64,000 bases of DNA from Gillisia mitskevichiae (GCF_003634585.1 NZ_RBLG01000001.1:496001-560000), one strand, 5' to 3'; shown: positions 52,909 to 62,936, numbered from the stretch's first letter. Numbers and translations are program-made. The notes: generated from the letters alone by a model not told the origin.

Positions 52909-53505
52909 ATGGAAGCTATTGAAAAAAAGATTAGTCATGGCTTGTTCATCCTGTTATTGATACTATCATTTGGTAGTATCAAAGCACAAACTGAGGATGA
53001 CGAAATGGACATGAAAAGTGAAAATCATATAGAAAATATGCAGGATCATGAGAAGCTTATAAATGATGCCAATGAGGCTAAAACTATTTTCATGAATAGT
53101 AATGCTGAGGTTAAAACCTTATTTAATTCTTCTGCAGGATATGTTATTTTTCCAAATGTGGGAAAAGGCGCATATATTGTTGGTGGAGCGGCTGGTAATG
53201 GCGTAGTTTTCGAAAATGGGGATATTGTTGGTTTGGCTAAGTTGAAACAGATTGATATTGGGTTACAGTTGGGTGGTCAAGCTTTTAGACAAGTGATCTT
53301 TTTTGAAACCCAAGAACAACTAAATGAATTTAAAAAAGGGAATTTTGAACTTTCTGGAAATGTTTCTGCAGTAGTTGTGGAGGAAGGGAAAGCAAAAAGT
53401 ATAGATTTCACAAATGGTTTGGCTGTGGCAACCATGCCCAAAGCTGGTGCCATGATTGAAATAGCCGTGGGCGGTCAAAAATTTGAATATGAAGCGCTCC
53501 CGTAA
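52909..53505 (+). CDS. SYLF-domain (YSC84-like) secreted protein, paralogue 1
   Basis: The 198-residue protein has a signal-like N-terminus (LILSFGSIKAQ) and a SYLF/YSC84 lipid-binding domain with FNSSAGYVIFPNVGKGAYIV, LKQIDIGLQLGGQAFRQVIFF, FELSGNVSAVVVEEG and PKAGAMIEIAVGGQKFEYE. Family members bind phosphoinositides in eukaryotes; the bacterial role is unknown. A close paralogue lies at 54811-55356, after the LacI regulator. Confidence 0.88.
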   Translation: MEAIEKKISHGLFILLLILSFGSIKAQTEDDEMDMKSENHIENMQDHEKLINDANEAKTIFMNSNAEVKTLFNSSAGYVIFPNVGKGAYIVGGAAGNGVVFENGDIVGLAKLKQIDIGLQLGGQAFRQVIFFETQEQLNEFKKGNFELSGNVSAVVVEEGKAKSIDFTNGLAVATMPKAGAMIEIAVGGQKFEYEALP

Positions 53506-54810: not shown

Positions 54811-55356
54811 ATGAAAATATTTAAATCGAATTTATTAAAACCTGTCTTAGCTTTATTGGTAGTAGTAATGTCTAGTTGTGGAGCTACTCAAACTACTTCT
54901 GCAGATATTATGGCAGATTCCAGAGACGCAAAAGCTACAATTTCTAAAAGCCATCCTCAGGTAGCAGAATTATTTGACACCTCAGTTGGTTATGTGATCT
55001 TTCCTAATGTAGGAAAAGGAGCCTATATAATTGGAGCAGCTTCAGGACATGGGACGGTTTATCAAAATGGCGCCTTAATAGGATATTCTAGTATGAAACA
55101 GGTGGATGTTGGATTACAAGCAGGTGGGAAATCGTACATAGAGGTTATATTCTTTCAAACTCAAGATGCTTTAAATAGATTTAAAAGCGGTAGTTACGAA
55201 CTGTCTGGTAATGCATCTGCAGTACTTTTAGAGGAGGGAGTTTCTAGAGATGTAGAATTTAGAGATGGTGTTGGTGTTGTTACCAAACCAAAAGCTGGAG
55301 CCATGGCAGGAATTTCTGTTGGTGGACAAAAATTTGAATTTGATGCTATTCAATAA
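54811..55356 (+). CDS. SYLF-domain (YSC84-like) lipoprotein, paralogue 2
   Basis: The 181-residue lipoprotein (LVVVMSSC) carries the same SYLF domain as 52909-53505: FDTSVGYVIFPNVGKGAYII, MKQVDVGLQAGGKSYIEVIFF, YELSGNASAVLLEEG and PKAGAMAGISVGGQKFEFD. Unlike paralogue 1 it has a lipobox, so it is probably membrane anchored. A terminator follows. Confidence 0.88.
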   Translation: MKIFKSNLLKPVLALLVVVMSSCGATQTTSADIMADSRDAKATISKSHPQVAELFDTSVGYVIFPNVGKGAYIIGAASGHGTVYQNGALIGYSSMKQVDVGLQAGGKSYIEVIFFQTQDALNRFKSGSYELSGNASAVLLEEGVSRDVEFRDGVGVVTKPKAGAMAGISVGGQKFEFDAIQ

Positions 55357-55449: not shown

Positions 55450-56124
55450 ATGAACATTAGACCAAAATTATTGATTTTTGATGTCAATGAAACATTGCTA
55501 AATATGGAACCTTTAAAGAACTCTATAAATGAGTCTTTAAAAGATGAAAGAGCTTTTGATATCTGGTTTCCTACTTTATTGCAATATTCATTAGTGGAAA
55601 CTATTACTAAAAATTATAAGGATTTTTCTGAAATTGCTGAATCAACTTTAAAAATGACAGCTCACCAACTGGATGTTTCATTGACAGCCGCACAGATAAA
55701 GAGTGTCTTAAGTCCGATTACAAAATTATCGGCATATCCTGAGGTTTCAAATACTCTTGAAGTTTTAAAAGAAAAGGGATTTAAACTCGTTGCGCTTTCC
55801 AATGGAAAACCGCAGGTTGTAGATGAACAATTAAAATATGCAAAGATCCATCACTTATTCGATAAAGTATTGAGCATAGAGGAAGTTAAAAATTATAAGC
55901 CACATGTTTCTACCTATCATTGCGCCTATTCATTAATGAATGTATTACCAGAGGACACTATGTTAATTGCAGCCCATGGTTGGGACATTGCAGGTGCAAA
56001 AAGAGCGGGAATTCAAGCAGCTTTTATAGCTAGACCTGGAAAATCATTATATCCTTTAGCATTAAAGCCAGATATTACAGGATCTAATCTTAATGAGATT
56101 ACAACTTTATTGTTAGCTCTGTAA
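55450..56124 (+). CDS. Haloacid dehalogenase type II family hydrolase
   Basis: The 224-residue HAD enzyme has motif I IFDVNETLLNM (nucleophile Asp10), motif II VALSNGKPQ, a motif III Lys in VKNYKPHVSTYHCA and motif IV MLIAAHGWDIAGAKRAG. This matches haloacid dehalogenase type II (L-2-haloacid dehalogenase-like) proteins: the family's N-terminal FDVNETL and HGWDIAGA are clear. Dehalogenation is family-based; many members act on other substrates. Confidence 0.88.
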   Translation: MNIRPKLLIFDVNETLLNMEPLKNSINESLKDERAFDIWFPTLLQYSLVETITKNYKDFSEIAESTLKMTAHQLDVSLTAAQIKSVLSPITKLSAYPEVSNTLEVLKEKGFKLVALSNGKPQVVDEQLKYAKIHHLFDKVLSIEEVKNYKPHVSTYHCAYSLMNVLPEDTMLIAAHGWDIAGAKRAGIQAAFIARPGKSLYPLALKPDITGSNLNEITTLLLAL

Positions 56125-56245: not shown

Positions 56246-59200
56246 TTAGAACTTAAATCCGAAGGTGAACACTACTCTGTTTCCTTCTTCACTTGTATAG
56301 TATCCTACATTTCCTGTAAAAGCACTAAATCCGTTTATAAATACAGAACCACCATAACTGGTGTGCCAATCTTTAGAGTTATCATTATTTACCCAGACTC
56401 TTCCATAATCAAAACCTCCAGTTAATCCGAATCTTAAAGGTATGAATGAAGTTTTTATCTTCCCTAATCCTATTCTAAGATCGGTACTTTGATAAAAACT
56501 ACTTTTACCATTAAAACGTTGATTCCTAAAGGCTCTTAAATTATCATTTCCACCTAACATGGCAGCGTGGTAAAATTCATATTTATCACTAATAATAACC
56601 TCTCCACCAATTTTAGTAGCAAGTACAATTATTCCGCTACTGTGTAATGGGTAATCTATAGAAATAGACGGTTTAACGTAACCTAGCTCATTATCATTAT
56701 CGTCTATATTAATCTTATACCCCGCAGTAAGATCAAACTCCATCCCTAATGTTGGATATGCTGGGTTTTTCCTTTTATTTAAATAATTGTAATTAACTTC
56801 TGCTCCTGCATAGATCTGATCTTCAAATACATCGTTATTTGCTTGGAATCTATCTCCTATAAATCTTTTTGTATCTCTTTCAACTTCTAAAGATTCTAGC
56901 ATAGTACTGAATTGGAATCTGCTTCCTCTTCTGTTTGTCCAGATTAATGAGGGTGCAAAATGCCATTGTTCTATGTTCACTCTGTTGTAATCTAGATCTA
57001 CATCACTATCATCATATACAGTTTCATTCCCACTTCCAAAGTAATTCAGAGTAAAATTTGGACTTGTGTAGTATGCATCTATTCCAAGATTCCAATTGTA
57101 GAAAATATGAGCAAATTCTCCGAAATAGCTTAATTCTAATCCCTGAGTATCAAAAAAGTAATTCACTCCTAAAGTATGCTGAGTTGTAAAAGGGTTTTTA
57201 ACCAGGCCGTAAGTGGTATAGGTATCTGAAACTCCAACATTAACGCCAGCATCAGAACTAAAACCAACTACTGGAAAAATGCTGTTCTGGGTAGTTTTGC
57301 GCTTGGTGAAATTGTAATTATTGATTTCGTAAGAGTCTACTAACCATTTTTTACCAGCTTTTTCTATAGTATTGTCCTTAGACTTATAATCATATAGTTT
57401 AGTTTTTCTGGAATTCTCGAAATTATAAATGTCGTTTTCTTCGCCTCCTAAAACTTTCAATTTTATTAGGTCGTTTCCTTTTCCTTCAATTTTAAATTCA
57501 TCGTCTCCATCTAGACCATAGATCCAAATCTCTTTAGTTTCCTTGGAATTATAGCTATTTTCAAAAACAACTTCATCCTTACTCGATATCTGAATATCTG
57601 TAATTCCGTCTTTCTTTCGAGTAATAAGGAATTTATCTTCTTTATCTGTTCCTGTTATAACATTAAATTTATTTAAATACTCATAATAATTCCGAGCAAC
57701 AGCCATTAAATTATCCCGACGAATTTTCAAATTCTTTTTGATGTTCACTATACTTTCATCTTGCACTTCTTCAGGAACATTGTTAAATGCGTCTTCAATT
57801 TTAGCATCGGTGATATTTGCTTGAATAAATTTTACTTGCTCTTCCCAATCCTGCCAACTAGAAGTTTGAATGATCATATTATCCATGGGATATCCCGCAG
57901 TATTAAACCATTTAACACTCTTTATTGAAGAATTGAATGATTGCATTGCTCTAAACGGTGGGAAGCCTAATTTTAATAGAGAAATTATTGGACCATCATA
58001 TTTAGAAAAAGCTTGATCTCTGTCTCTTGGAATTACTTTATATACTTTTTTATCATCCTCCTCTTGAAATTCTGCCCATCTAAACTGGTCGTCATGTCTA
58101 TCCCAATCTCCTACCAACATATCAAAGATTCTAGATTTAATATATTCCCTTTCATCTACGCTTGCATCCTTAGATTCCAACAATTCTAGTCTAAGGTCTG
58201 AAGAGCTTAAAATATCATCGGGAGTTCCAAAGATCTCCATATTTTTATTTTCATCTCCCACGTGTTCTTCCAGCATATATAACTCATCTCCATACTCATC
58301 ATTAAATACACCTAATGCTTCTTGTTTTGGCACGTAATATATTTTCGGACTCACATGAAGAATATCTACATCGTCCATTAGATCATTTAATGCGTAGGGT
58401 GCGTAAGGATGTGCAGTAGTATAATAATCCATCACAATTCTTTCAGCGACAGTATTCTCTACAATATCTCCTAAATAATGCTCTTTTACATTATTCTGAA
58501 TAAAACGAATTGCGCTTTTTCTTAGAGCTCTTAGCGTATATTCATTTTCGCTATCATTTATTAGTCTTAGAGATCTAGATTGATGTCCACCGCCTTCAGT
58601 AATTGGTTTCACATTTCCTGGCAGATCATCCAAGAATAATACTGGAGCATTAATTGGTTTACTATAAATATCACGGTAATGCTCTCCCCAAACCCATTTG
58701 TATAATCCAGTTTTATCTGTTTCTTCTTTTGTGTATACTGAAGAAACCGCAGTTTTACCATAAGTGTCTTTAGGCTTATAAGAAACTTCATCTAATGAGG
58801 TTCGTTTTCTCTGAATCTCTTTTTCGAACAAGAATTTGGAATCTGTGGCTGTAGACTCATAAAACCTAACGAGAGAACTACCATCTTTAAATAAGATGAG
58901 TTTTGCATATCCATTTTTATCTGAAGCAAAATGTCCTTTTTTCTCTGCTCTAGCATTTTGAGTTTTAGCTGCTGCTCCACTTATAATTTGTGGCACTTCA
59001 TGATGATCTAAATATTGAAGATTTTTATCGTTCCCAGAAACAAAAATTACGTCATCAAATTCACGCGCAGTAGCTTCCAATATATTATGTAGTTTACTCT
59101 GTTCTGCATTTTGATAGGTTTGATCTGAAAAACCTGCAACTTTTTTAATGAAACCGTATTTGGTACTGCTCAAAATAGGGTGATGCACTGCTACAATAAC

Positions 59201-59854
59201 AGTTTTACCATAGTTGTCCTTTAATTCATCTCTAAACTCTGCAAAGAACTGCTCTCTAGTTTTAATTTCACATTTATTATTAATGTAAGGGTGATCATCC
59301 CAATTTTCTAAATACCATTGAGAATCTATCATGATAAGCGCTACATCGTCGTTAATCTCTTCGCTTTCAATAGGACAGCCATCATTTGGCCAAAATTTCG
59401 CTTTGCTGTTATCTTGTAAAAAAGATTCCAGATCGTCTATGCTAATATGTCCTTTTTTATTCCATTCATTCACCCCAGGAGTGAAGATCACATTCCCATT
59501 AAATTTATCTATTGGATCTAATAATGAATTCTTTAGGTATGCTTCTGTCTTCTTTTGAGCATCGTCTTTAGATGGATAGCCTTTTTTTGTAATATTTCCT
59601 ACAATTAATAAAGTCGCGTCTTTGTCTTCTTCTGAAGACTTAATGATCCCATTTAATACCTCTTGCGAGGTCTTATCATTTTTATCCAAAGCAGTATTGG
59701 CTGTGATATAAAAGGTATGGGCAACTTCTTTTCCTTGAGTCGCACTTTTGTCTTGTGCAAAACCTGAAGAAAAAATGCTGAAAAGAAATAAAAGACTGAA
59801 GTTCGAGAAGTTAAAAATTCGGTGGGAACTTCTTAAAGTAGTAGACTTGTGCAT
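56246..59854 (-). CDS. Outer-membrane protein: degenerate metallophosphoesterase, kinase-like domain, Omp85-type barrel
   Basis: This is a 1202-residue protein with a signal peptide (about 1-34, FSSGFAQ). Residues 45-330 follow the calcineurin-like phosphoesterase fold (conserved MIDSQWYLENWDDHP; VAVHHPILSS), but most metal-ligand motifs are changed: GN at 86-87 for GD, PGVNEW (126-131) for PGNHDW, SGNDKN (273-278) for SGHxHN. Residues 420-700 look like a kinase fold: a glycine-rich GGGHQSRS (421-428), LRALRK (441-446), hinge-like LYMLEE (525-530), GDWDRHDDQ (582-590) and PRDRDQAF (609-616). Residues 850-1202 are a surface-antigen barrel ending FTFGFKF. Catalysis by either domain is inference. 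The usual annotation would be metallophosphoesterase. Confidence 0.75.
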   Translation of the reverse strand: MHKSTTLRSSHRIFNFSNFSLLFLFSIFSSGFAQDKSATQGKEVAHTFYITANTALDKNDKTSQEVLNGIIKSSEEDKDATLLIVGNITKKGYPSKDDAQKKTEAYLKNSLLDPIDKFNGNVIFTPGVNEWNKKGHISIDDLESFLQDNSKAKFWPNDGCPIESEEINDDVALIMIDSQWYLENWDDHPYINNKCEIKTREQFFAEFRDELKDNYGKTVIVAVHHPILSSTKYGFIKKVAGFSDQTYQNAEQSKLHNILEATAREFDDVIFVSGNDKNLQYLDHHEVPQIISGAAAKTQNARAEKKGHFASDKNGYAKLILFKDGSSLVRFYESTATDSKFLFEKEIQRKRTSLDEVSYKPKDTYGKTAVSSVYTKEETDKTGLYKWVWGEHYRDIYSKPINAPVLFLDDLPGNVKPITEGGGHQSRSLRLINDSENEYTLRALRKSAIRFIQNNVKEHYLGDIVENTVAERIVMDYYTTAHPYAPYALNDLMDDVDILHVSPKIYYVPKQEALGVFNDEYGDELYMLEEHVGDENKNMEIFGTPDDILSSSDLRLELLESKDASVDEREYIKSRIFDMLVGDWDRHDDQFRWAEFQEEDDKKVYKVIPRDRDQAFSKYDGPIISLLKLGFPPFRAMQSFNSSIKSVKWFNTAGYPMDNMIIQTSSWQDWEEQVKFIQANITDAKIEDAFNNVPEEVQDESIVNIKKNLKIRRDNLMAVARNYYEYLNKFNVITGTDKEDKFLITRKKDGITDIQISSKDEVVFENSYNSKETKEIWIYGLDGDDEFKIEGKGNDLIKLKVLGGEENDIYNFENSRKTKLYDYKSKDNTIEKAGKKWLVDSYEINNYNFTKRKTTQNSIFPVVGFSSDAGVNVGVSDTYTTYGLVKNPFTTQHTLGVNYFFDTQGLELSYFGEFAHIFYNWNLGIDAYYTSPNFTLNYFGSGNETVYDDSDVDLDYNRVNIEQWHFAPSLIWTNRRGSRFQFSTMLESLEVERDTKRFIGDRFQANNDVFEDQIYAGAEVNYNYLNKRKNPAYPTLGMEFDLTAGYKINIDDNDNELGYVKPSISIDYPLHSSGIIVLATKIGGEVIISDKYEFYHAAMLGGNDNLRAFRNQRFNGKSSFYQSTDLRIGLGKIKTSFIPLRFGLTGGFDYGRVWVNNDNSKDWHTSYGGSVFINGFSAFTGNVGYYTSEEGNRVVFTFGFKF

Positions 59855-60155: not shown

Positions 60156-62936
60156 TTGAGATTTTTCTTCTTTATAATTGCTTTATATACTTTTTCTGGA
60201 TTTTCACAGGAATTGCCCCCAGTGATCAATTATAGTTCCACAGTCTATGATGCGGGAAATCAAAATTGGATGATCTCCCAATCAGAAAATAAGAATTTAT
60301 ATATCGCAAATGGAACTGGACTTCTAGAATTTAATGGAGCTGAATGGAGTTTGTATCCAGTACCTAATAATACTATAGTAAGATCTGTGAAAGCTGTTGG
60401 AGAAAAGATCTTTACTGGTGCATATATGGAAGTAGGGTATTGGGAGAAAAATGATTTTGGCACATTAGATTATACCAGTTTATTAAATAAGTTTCCAGAT
60501 AAAGTTAAAGATGGAGAACAGTTTTGGCATATAGAGAATAGTGAAGATATTATGATCTTTCAAAGTTTTGAAAAATTGTATTTATATAATCTTCTCACAG
60601 ATAAGGTGACCACTGTAAAAACTGATAATTCTTCGCCAATCACCAACCTTTTTAAAGTAGATGAGAATATCTACTTTCAACAAGAAGGCTTAGGAATCTT
60701 CCAAATTAAAAATGGGAAACCAGTATTGGTGATTCCTCCTGAAATTATTGGAAATTTAGAAGTGGTAAATCTCTCATTAAATGAAAATGACCTTAGAATA
60801 ATATCTAAGTCTGGTAAATTCCATACTTGGGATGGAGCTCAATTAATTGCTTTTAATGAAGAATTAACCAAGGTCCTTAATGGGCTAAGTATTTTTTGTG
60901 CGCTGAATCTAGCGGATGAGTCGTTGATTCTAGGAACGGTTGAGAATGGAGTTTATCAAGTTAACTCAAAGGGGGAAGTTTTGCAAAATTTTAATCAGAC
61001 CAATGGTCTATTAAATAATACAGTACTTAGTTTATTCGAAGATGTAGATAGAAATCTCTGGGCTGGATTAGATAATGGGCTTGGTGTGATAAATCTTAAT
61101 TCAGATTTCGAAATATTTCAGGATAAGAATGGTAAAATCGGTTCTGTTTACACTTCACTTAAGGAAAAGGAATATTTATATCTAGGTACAAATCAAGGTT
61201 TATATTACAAAAAGGATGGAGAAAGCGCATATACTTTTATTCCAGGAACCAACGGTCAAGTGTGGAGTTTGCAGAATATAGATGATATTATATTTTGCGG
61301 TCACAATACTGGAACATTTATAGTGAAAGATGGTATAGCTAATAAAATTGCTGATAGATCTGGTACGTGGAAAGTTGTAAAACTGGAGCAGTATCAGGAT
61401 GTGTATCTACAAGGACATTATAATGGGCTAAGTGTTTTAAAACTTACTGGAGACAAATTAATAGCATCTCCTATGTTAAAAGATTTTCCACATTCCTCTA
61501 AATCCATTGTTTCTAATAAAAATGGAGATGTATGGATTGGAAATGAGCATAAAGGAGTTTTTAAAATTAGATTGAACGATTCCCTAACTAAAATAAGTAA
61601 AATCAAAAACTATCCTTTTAAAGGAGTTTCGGGAATTACATCAAGTATTTTTAAATTTAATGACACTCTATATTATTCTACAAGAGCAAATATATTTCAA
61701 TACATTCCGAGTTTAGATAAATTCAATTCGCAGAACGAGTTGTCAAAGATCACAGCTAATTTCAATAAAGTTTCGGGTACTATTATAAATGATGGGGTAG
61801 ATAAGATCTGGGGATTTACCGAAAGTTCAATTTTTAACGTTGGCCTTTCCAAATTGAGATCTGGCTATAATTTAACGCCCATTTATCTTCCTAAAGAACT
61901 TAGAAATATTACTATTGGACATGAAAATATTACTGTGCTGGATAATGACAAATATATAATTGGAGTTTCCAATGGGTATTTAATTTATAATCAAAGGGCA
62001 ATATTAGATCATGAGTATGAGATAAAAATTAACAAATTAAGCAATGCAACGGTAGAGAATAATCCAATTTTAGTTCCTTTAAACCGGAAATCAGTTTTCC
62101 CGTATAAGTCCAATAACATTAATATAGAATATAGCGTAGCAGAATTTGAAAAATTTATTTCTCCGGAATATAGTTATAGACTTATAGGTTTAAATTCCAA
62201 TTGGAGTAGATGGAGCAAAAATCCTATTGCAACTTTCAAAAACTTGTCTTTTGGAGATTATGAATTTCAAGTAAAAGGAAAGATTGGAGCTAATACTACA
62301 GAAACGATATCCTACTTTTTTAAAATTTCAAGGCCTTGGTATTTAAGTTGGATAGCATTAACTAGTTATGTATTACTTTTTCTAACTATCCTGTGGTTAA
62401 TTCATAGAGCAAATTTGAGGCATCATAGAAAGATTAATTTAGAAAATGAGAAGGAACTCAAAATGAAAAATCTTGAAGCCGAACAAAAGATCATTAAGCT
62501 TCAAAATGTTCAATTGGAAATGGACATGTCTAATAAGAATAAAGAACTCGCTGTCTCTACAATGAGCTTAATTAAAAAGAATGAATTTCTTACTAACATA
62601 AAAGATCAATTAAAAGAATCTGAATCTTCTAAAGTAAAATCTGTTATTAAAACAATAGACAAAGATATCAATGAAGAAGATAACTGGAATTTGTTTAGAG
62701 ATGCTTTTAATAATGCAGATAAGGAGTTCTTTAAAAAGATAAAATCTAAGCATCCAGATCTTACTTCTAATGATCTTAAGTTATGTGCATATTTAAGATT
62801 GAATCTCTCATCAAAAGAGATCGCTCCGCTTCTCAACATTTCCGTGAAAAGTGTAGAAATTAAACGATATCGTTTGCGTAAAAAAATGCTTTTAAACCGA
62901 GATGTGAATCTTGTGGAGTATATTCTCGCAGTTTAA
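60156..62936 (+). CDS. Propeller/Y_Y_Y sensor with C-terminal LuxR-type HTH
   Basis: The 926-residue membrane regulator has a signal peptide (YTFSGFSQ), then two-component-regulator-type propeller repeats (about 20-620, NGLLNNTVLSLFEDVDRNLWAGLDNGLGVI is one). A Y_Y_Y domain (about 660-730), one TM helix (about 735-755), a coiled coil (about 770-840) and a LuxR/GerE-like HTH (about 865-926, LSSKEIAPLLNISVKSVEIKR) follow. There is no kinase or receiver, so it likely couples periplasmic ligand to DNA directly. Its position upstream of a SusC-type gene suggests control of that glycan locus. The start is a TTG; no closer ATG fits the signal peptide. Confidence 0.87.
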   Translation: MRFFFFIIALYTFSGFSQELPPVINYSSTVYDAGNQNWMISQSENKNLYIANGTGLLEFNGAEWSLYPVPNNTIVRSVKAVGEKIFTGAYMEVGYWEKNDFGTLDYTSLLNKFPDKVKDGEQFWHIENSEDIMIFQSFEKLYLYNLLTDKVTTVKTDNSSPITNLFKVDENIYFQQEGLGIFQIKNGKPVLVIPPEIIGNLEVVNLSLNENDLRIISKSGKFHTWDGAQLIAFNEELTKVLNGLSIFCALNLADESLILGTVENGVYQVNSKGEVLQNFNQTNGLLNNTVLSLFEDVDRNLWAGLDNGLGVINLNSDFEIFQDKNGKIGSVYTSLKEKEYLYLGTNQGLYYKKDGESAYTFIPGTNGQVWSLQNIDDIIFCGHNTGTFIVKDGIANKIADRSGTWKVVKLEQYQDVYLQGHYNGLSVLKLTGDKLIASPMLKDFPHSSKSIVSNKNGDVWIGNEHKGVFKIRLNDSLTKISKIKNYPFKGVSGITSSIFKFNDTLYYSTRANIFQYIPSLDKFNSQNELSKITANFNKVSGTIINDGVDKIWGFTESSIFNVGLSKLRSGYNLTPIYLPKELRNITIGHENITVLDNDKYIIGVSNGYLIYNQRAILDHEYEIKINKLSNATVENNPILVPLNRKSVFPYKSNNINIEYSVAEFEKFISPEYSYRLIGLNSNWSRWSKNPIATFKNLSFGDYEFQVKGKIGANTTETISYFFKISRPWYLSWIALTSYVLLFLTILWLIHRANLRHHRKINLENEKELKMKNLEAEQKIIKLQNVQLEMDMSNKNKELAVSTMSLIKKNEFLTNIKDQLKESESSKVKSVIKTIDKDINEEDNWNLFRDAFNNADKEFFKKIKSKHPDLTSNDLKLCAYLRLNLSSKEIAPLLNISVKSVEIKRYRLRKKMLLNRDVNLVEYILAV

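Follow-up and report, generated by a model that had tools for sequence, protein, structure and literature searches.

The window, a 64,000-nucleotide stretch of the Gillisia mitskevichiae genome, carries a gene for a predicted outer-membrane protein in which an Omp85 barrel follows a phosphatase-like and a kinase-like domain (Table 1). The gene stands alone. Its convergent neighbour (55450-56124) was read from the sequence as a HAD-type hydrolase gene, and its divergent neighbour (60156-62936) is a Y_Y_Y/LuxR-type regulator gene. Comparison of the gene neighbourhoods around loci encoding proteins of the same type (window-type proteins) revealed no partner gene conserved across the clade. Two Ysc84/SYLF-domain genes (52909-53505 and 54811-55356) also lie in the window, close together on the same strand with a LacI-type regulator gene between them. 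AF2 modelling of the mature protein at full length (mean pLDDT 89.5, pTM 0.86) places, after the signal peptide, a pseudo-phosphatase domain, a kinase-fold domain, a small all-beta domain and the Omp85 barrel, in that order. A Pfam and NCBIfam scan of the protein gave no kinase or phosphatase match, and the NCBIfam model Omp85_fam matched with an E-value of 4e-12, under its curated cut-off. All of the motifs quoted in an earlier note on this DNA are present in the 1202-aa translation at, or adjoining, the residues given for them.

Table 1. Features of the window protein and its gene, in window coordinates.
Feature	Position	Strand	Basis
Whole gene, 1202 aa	56246..59854	(-)	ATG start; open reading frame without internal stop
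Signal peptide, ~residues 1-34, no lipobox cysteine	59753..59854	(-)	Sequence
Pseudo-phosphatase domain, residues 42-352, purple acid phosphatase fold	58799..59731	(-)	AF2 model against PDB
Metal ligand 1 lost, Asp replaced by N53	59696..59698	(-)	Alignment with canonical relatives
Metal ligand 2 lost, Asp replaced by N87 (G86-N87)	59594..59596	(-)	Same alignment, window clade against canonical
Lost GNHD motif, V128-N129-E130 (PGVNEW, 126-131)	59465..59473	(-)	Alignment
Retained His pair, H224-H225	59180..59185	(-)	Alignment
Lost SGHxH histidines, N275 and K277 (SGNDKN, 273-278)	59024..59032	(-)	Alignment
Kinase-fold domain, residues 401-728	57671..58654	(-)	AF2 model and structural matches
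Glycine-rich loop GGGHQSRSL, residues 421-429	58568..58594	(-)	No variation at G421-G423 in full-length or standalone homologues
R442..K446 at beta-3, basic residues that may bind phosphate	58517..58531	(-)	Both invariant in every group compared
Hinge-like LYMLEE, residues 525-530	58265..58282	(-)	Conservation of E529
Catalytic-loop-like GDWDRHDDQ, residues 582-590	58085..58111	(-)	Alignment to CotH catalytic loop
Metal-binding-loop-like PRDRDQAF, residues 609-616, D611 and D613	58007..58030	(-)	Both invariant; CotH profile alignment
Small all-beta domain, residues 730-838	57341..57667	(-)	AF2 secondary structure
16-stranded Omp85 barrel, residues 854-1200	56255..57295	(-)	AF2 model and structural match

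The C-terminal barrel proposed in the earlier note was recovered with 16 strands in the AF2 model, and comparison with PDB structures matched it to TamA (4n74, Z 26.9) and BamA (Z ~26). No POTRA domain precedes the barrel in the model: the domain that sits where Omp85 proteins usually have POTRA is all-beta and lacks the beta-alpha-alpha-beta-beta pattern. Omp85 subfamilies with non-POTRA N-termini have been described (PMC4104836). The signal peptide and the Omp85 barrel together indicate an extracytoplasmic location, and since the barrel is of the Omp85 type, the phosphatase-like and kinase-like domains most likely face the periplasm. The suggestion that these domains lie outside the inner membrane was supported, and they are most likely periplasm-facing rather than at the cell exterior.

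The AF2 model of the N-terminal domain has the fold of purple acid phosphatases (PDB 2bq8, Z 29.6, rmsd 2.7, 268 aligned). Active calcineurin-like and purple acid phosphatases carry the ligand set D, D, N(H/D), H and HxH, and this set is incomplete in the window protein: other residues stand in place of two Asp, of the Asn in GNHD and of the two His in SGHxH. The pattern is clade-wide, as was seen when 31 window-type proteins were aligned with 79 canonical full-length ones. The N53 position is Asn in 29 of the 31 window-type proteins (one His, one gap) and Asp in 78 of the 79 canonical proteins (one gap), and the N87 position is Asn in 30/31 and Asp in 78/79 (one gap), respectively. The GNHD position reads N/H/D in 79/79 canonical proteins compared to a varied residue followed by N and E in the window clade, the Asp being changed to Glu in 30/31; both SGHxH His are kept in 79/79 canonical proteins. 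PF00149 has no Pfam match in the window protein and matches at 3.6e-10 in a 42% identical canonical paralogue encoded in the same genome (G000:C3:194445-197969). Since the replacements are themselves conserved, the phosphatase-like domain looks maintained rather than decaying, and the loss is not private to the window protein. Alignment with canonical relatives therefore bore out the earlier reading of a calcineurin-type scaffold with a lost metal site, although the pseudo-phosphatase is confined to the window clade. The related remark that residues 50-57 hold no clear first Asp motif was right about the Asp, but the motif is not missing; it has undergone a consistent Asp-to-Asn change.

The middle domain was also modelled alone, together with 80 relatives, and the resulting AF2 model (pLDDT 92.3, pTM 0.91) was compared to solved structures. 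The best VIA-align matches were CotH (Z 14.6, 250 aligned), PI4K-II (14.4) and CtkA (12.9), followed by actin-fragmin kinase (11.5), PI3K (11.5) and HipA (11.4), and kinase-fold entries made up 50/50 of the matches listed. The first Foldseek matches include CtkA, PI4K-II, COQ8 and Rio2, with modest TM-scores of 0.35-0.51 to the best kinases. The region taken for kinase-like in the earlier note (residues 380-720) is thus modelled as a two-lobed kinase fold of the CotH/PI4K-II/HipA group, with Z-scores of up to 14.6. Among the families that had been put forward for comparison, CotH and HipA were recovered, but Fam20C was absent among the VIA-align matches listed. Judged by the model, the nearest kinase structures are those of CotH and PI4K-II.

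Comparison of sequence profiles with hhalign in local mode gave a P-value of 0.0016 against a profile of all CotH sequences, with control values of 0.47 for the N-domain, 0.24 for the barrel and 0.68 for the reversed sequence. The alignment puts DWDRH and PRDRDQAF on the CotH catalytic loop and DxD...F motif, suggesting a link to CotH that is weak but correctly placed. The same comparison with HipA gave no signal (P 0.26). Pfam kinase cut-offs were passed by 0/37 family members, and no Pfam model recognises the kinase-like domain. Sub-threshold Pfam matches were to HipA_C in 6/37 members and to Fam20C and CotH once each, with best E-values among the 37 of 0.017 (HipA_C, PF07804), 0.037 (Fam20C, PF06702) and 0.039 (CotH, PF08757); since matches to unrelated families appear in the same list at similar E-values, these echoes are supporting only. 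Searches of PDB sequences with the middle domain, by phmmer and by profile, returned chance matches only, one of them to HDAC6.

Conservation of the active site was compared across 32 window-type and 79 canonical proteins (111 full-length) and 13 standalone proteins. G421, G422, G423, R442, K446, D578, D585, R586, H587, Q590, D611 and D613 are invariant in all three groups, and D589 is likewise invariant in 111/111 full-length homologues, as are D585, R586, H587 and Q590. Only 29 of the ~386 domain positions are invariant in the mixed alignment (A1). The hinge-like residue E529 is present in 31/32 window-type, 77/79 canonical and 13/13 standalone proteins. Both a catalytic-loop Asp and a DFG-type Asp were found, D585, D611 and D613 being aligned with the CotH motifs. 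The metal-binding Asn expected five residues after the catalytic Asp is absent, its place being taken in all groups by the invariant Gln, Q590. Mutation of CotH D228 or D251 inactivates CotH (PMC7821199), and D585 and D611 are the presumed counterparts of these two residues. The ordered kinase-like motifs had been recognised, and K446, D585 and D613 named, before any alignment was made, and the three residues then proved invariant in 111/111 full-length and 13/13 standalone homologues, which argues that the motif reading is more than chance. Neither of the two outcomes that the earlier note gave as refuting its reading was seen. Two of the assignments shifted. D613 stood as an invariant residue of the putative metal-binding site in PRDRDQAF, but by the alignment D611 is likelier the DFG-type Asp, in a DxD that resembles that of CotH; K446 is invariant, but R442, which lies in strand beta-3, is equally conserved, and either may be the base that contacts ATP.

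The window-type proteins group as a single clade in the middle-domain tree (32/32 tips, FastTree support 0.84). A lipobox-like motif was detected in 0/29 proteins of this clade compared to 76/78 canonical relatives. All ten sampled genomes that carry a window-type copy also carry a second full-length copy. In the window's own genome, the canonical paralogue probably combines a working phosphatase with this kinase fold. The protein query matched 91/120 genomes of the window's own family, and the kinase-fold domain was found in 142/395 sampled Bacteroidota genomes; no relative was found on viral contigs. Besides the phosphatase-kinase-beta-barrel architecture (~1240 aa), there are kinase-beta-barrel proteins (~880 aa), kinase-beta proteins without a barrel (~540 aa) and standalone membrane-anchored versions (~425 aa). 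The common denominator of the family is thus the kinase fold, not the phosphatase.

Some relatives have a broken kinase-like site. Tandem kinase-fold copies in two distant Bacteroidota genomes (L159:4501-7851 and L167:2129-7148) have intact GDWDRH loops beside one GDWSRREDQ copy and look like sets of active kinases and pseudokinases. A further relative (L045:2644-5118) keeps the barrel but no longer has the phosphatase domain or the kinase-like motifs. These copies indicate that the kinase fold can lose its active-site residues. In the window clade the phosphatase ligands were lost and the kinase-like residues kept in the same proteins, suggesting selective retention of the kinase-like site. 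Since the fold tolerates loss of the site, its retention beside a dead phosphatase points to selection acting on it.

Omp85 barrels combined with PF00149 were named the 'Metallo' subfamily by Heinz and Lithgow (2014, PMC4104836), who call PF00149 a metalloprotease and make no mention of a kinase-like domain in the main text; in 2024 metalloprotease-type Omp85 proteins were counted among those not well characterised (PMC11116518). The window protein shares with this subfamily the barrel and the lack of POTRA, and its N-terminal domain, judged by fold, is probably of the PF00149 type. The window clade differs in having neither the PF00149 metal site nor the lipid anchor, and some related proteins consist of the kinase fold and barrel without PF00149. 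With the spore-coat kinase CotH (PDB 5jda, PF08757) it has in common the fold, the catalytic-loop Asp and, by profiles, the DxD...F motif. In contrast to CotH, to which it is 13% identical without a Pfam CotH match above cut-off, the window protein is fused to Omp85, and the RHxxQ and GGGxQxxS loops are specific to its family. Type II phosphatidylinositol 4-kinase (PDB 9hhm, 5i0n) is likewise similar in fold but is a eukaryotic lipid kinase of 8-10% identity; its catalytic-loop and DFG-type motifs are presumably similar in shape to those of the window protein. HipA and CtkA share the fold and, for HipA_C, the weak echoes below the Pfam cut-off, but have no outer-membrane fusion. Purple acid phosphatase and Plasmodium GAP50 (Z 27.8) share the N-terminal fold, whereas the window copy is without the ligands that hold the metal in the active enzymes. 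The patatin-Omp85 protein PlpD also has an enzyme-like domain N-terminal to the barrel, which was shown to stay in the periplasm (PMC11116518), but this domain has another fold, and PlpD has POTRA where the window protein has the all-beta domain. A limited search, outside subscription papers, preprints and AlphaFold-based databases, found no paper linking Omp85 with a kinase domain. The kinase-shaped part belongs to a family widespread in Bacteroidota whose likeness to kinases has, as far as we found, gone unrecognised.

Collectively, the model and the conserved residues suggest that the window protein belongs to the CotH/PI4K-II/HipA-like kinase fold group, is anchored in the outer membrane with this domain facing the periplasm, and is probably catalytic. 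We consider it reasonably probable that this Omp85 'Metallo' protein uses a periplasmic kinase fold to phosphorylate an outer-membrane substrate, perhaps an envelope lipid, glycan or protein, and that the dead phosphatase domain has been retained as a scaffold or for binding the substrate. In such a mechanism D585 would be the catalytic base, a metal would be held by D611 (with D613) and Q590, R442 and/or K446 would bind the phosphates of a donor, and the window copy would have become kinase-only. The main objection concerns the phosphoryl donor, since the periplasm is thought to lack ATP, as stated for PlpD (PMC11116518); this lends weight to readings as a pseudoenzyme or as an enzyme of other chemistry. 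The Gln at the metal-Asn position, the absence of any member above a Pfam kinase cut-off and the modest Foldseek TM-scores also count against the main reading. A wider picture, of periplasmic, envelope-anchored kinase-fold enzymes operating across the phylum without cytosolic ATP and built on a kinase-fold core that may or may not carry the barrel and the phosphatase, with the kinase-only window clade descending from a bifunctional phosphatase-kinase, is tentative and in our view somewhat doubtful.

As a pseudoenzyme, the kinase fold would bind a nucleotide, phospholipid or phosphosugar and gate or regulate the barrel or a partner without performing chemistry. The lack of a periplasmic ATP source fits this reading, as do the Gln at the position of the metal-binding Asn of most kinases, the adjoining phosphatase-like domain that is itself a pseudoenzyme and the existence of relatives with GDWSRREDQ or degenerate sites. 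We nevertheless regard it as rather unlikely, since D585, D611 and D613 do not vary among the 111 full-length and 13 standalone homologues, a domain that only binds a ligand rarely requires all three, and the fold can do without them, as the broken copies demonstrate. Kinase-fold enzymes such as SelO and SidJ carry out other chemistry, and the window protein may similarly catalyse nucleotidyl or glutamyl transfer or use a non-ATP donor such as polyprenyl phosphate, polyphosphate or a phospholipid headgroup. This would suit the unusual RH..Q catalytic loop and a compartment thought to be without ATP (PMC11116518), but no donor or reaction is directly supported, and we judge it unlikely to a similar degree.

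The Omp85 identity of the barrel could also mean that the protein assembles or secretes outer-membrane proteins, with the N-terminal domains merely replacing POTRA as a periplasmic scaffold. This is improbable, as the standalone membrane-anchored and barrel-less versions keep their catalytic residues, which suggests that the kinase-fold domain works without a barrel. Passage of the N-terminal domains through the barrel, for action on the cell surface or after release, was first suggested for PlpD and later raised as one option for the 'Metallo' subfamily (PMC4104836). It appears very improbable here given the periplasmic retention of the PlpD enzyme domain (PMC11116518), the large size and folded state of the phosphatase-like and kinase-like domains, and the canonical relatives, which look like N-terminally tethered lipoproteins.

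The conserved kinase-like site offers a biochemical hypothesis that can be tested for the poorly characterised 'Metallo' subfamily. If an outer-membrane kinase-fold enzyme is confirmed, one would have to ask what donates phosphoryl groups in a compartment where ATP is thought absent. The family itself supplies natural controls, since copies with a dead phosphatase or a dead kinase-like site occur alongside intact copies and some versions have no barrel.

Several other genes recur near members of the family. A gene with HD and PycTM (Pycsar effector) domains adjoins the canonical paralogue at L002:5257-6468 and in 44/58 canonical loci (for example L079:2581-3756, a locus of the laboratory model Flavobacterium johnsoniae), lying upstream on the opposite strand in 41 loci and often within ~50 bases; it is not kept beside window-type copies. 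In 45 loci the canonical paralogue adjoins a gene whose product looks secreted and has SdiA-regulated/NHL matches (for example L107:7634-8629). In two genomes a CotH-family gene lies ~2 kb from a kinase-beta-barrel gene (G189:C10:20508-24674 and G138:C15:16534-19924).
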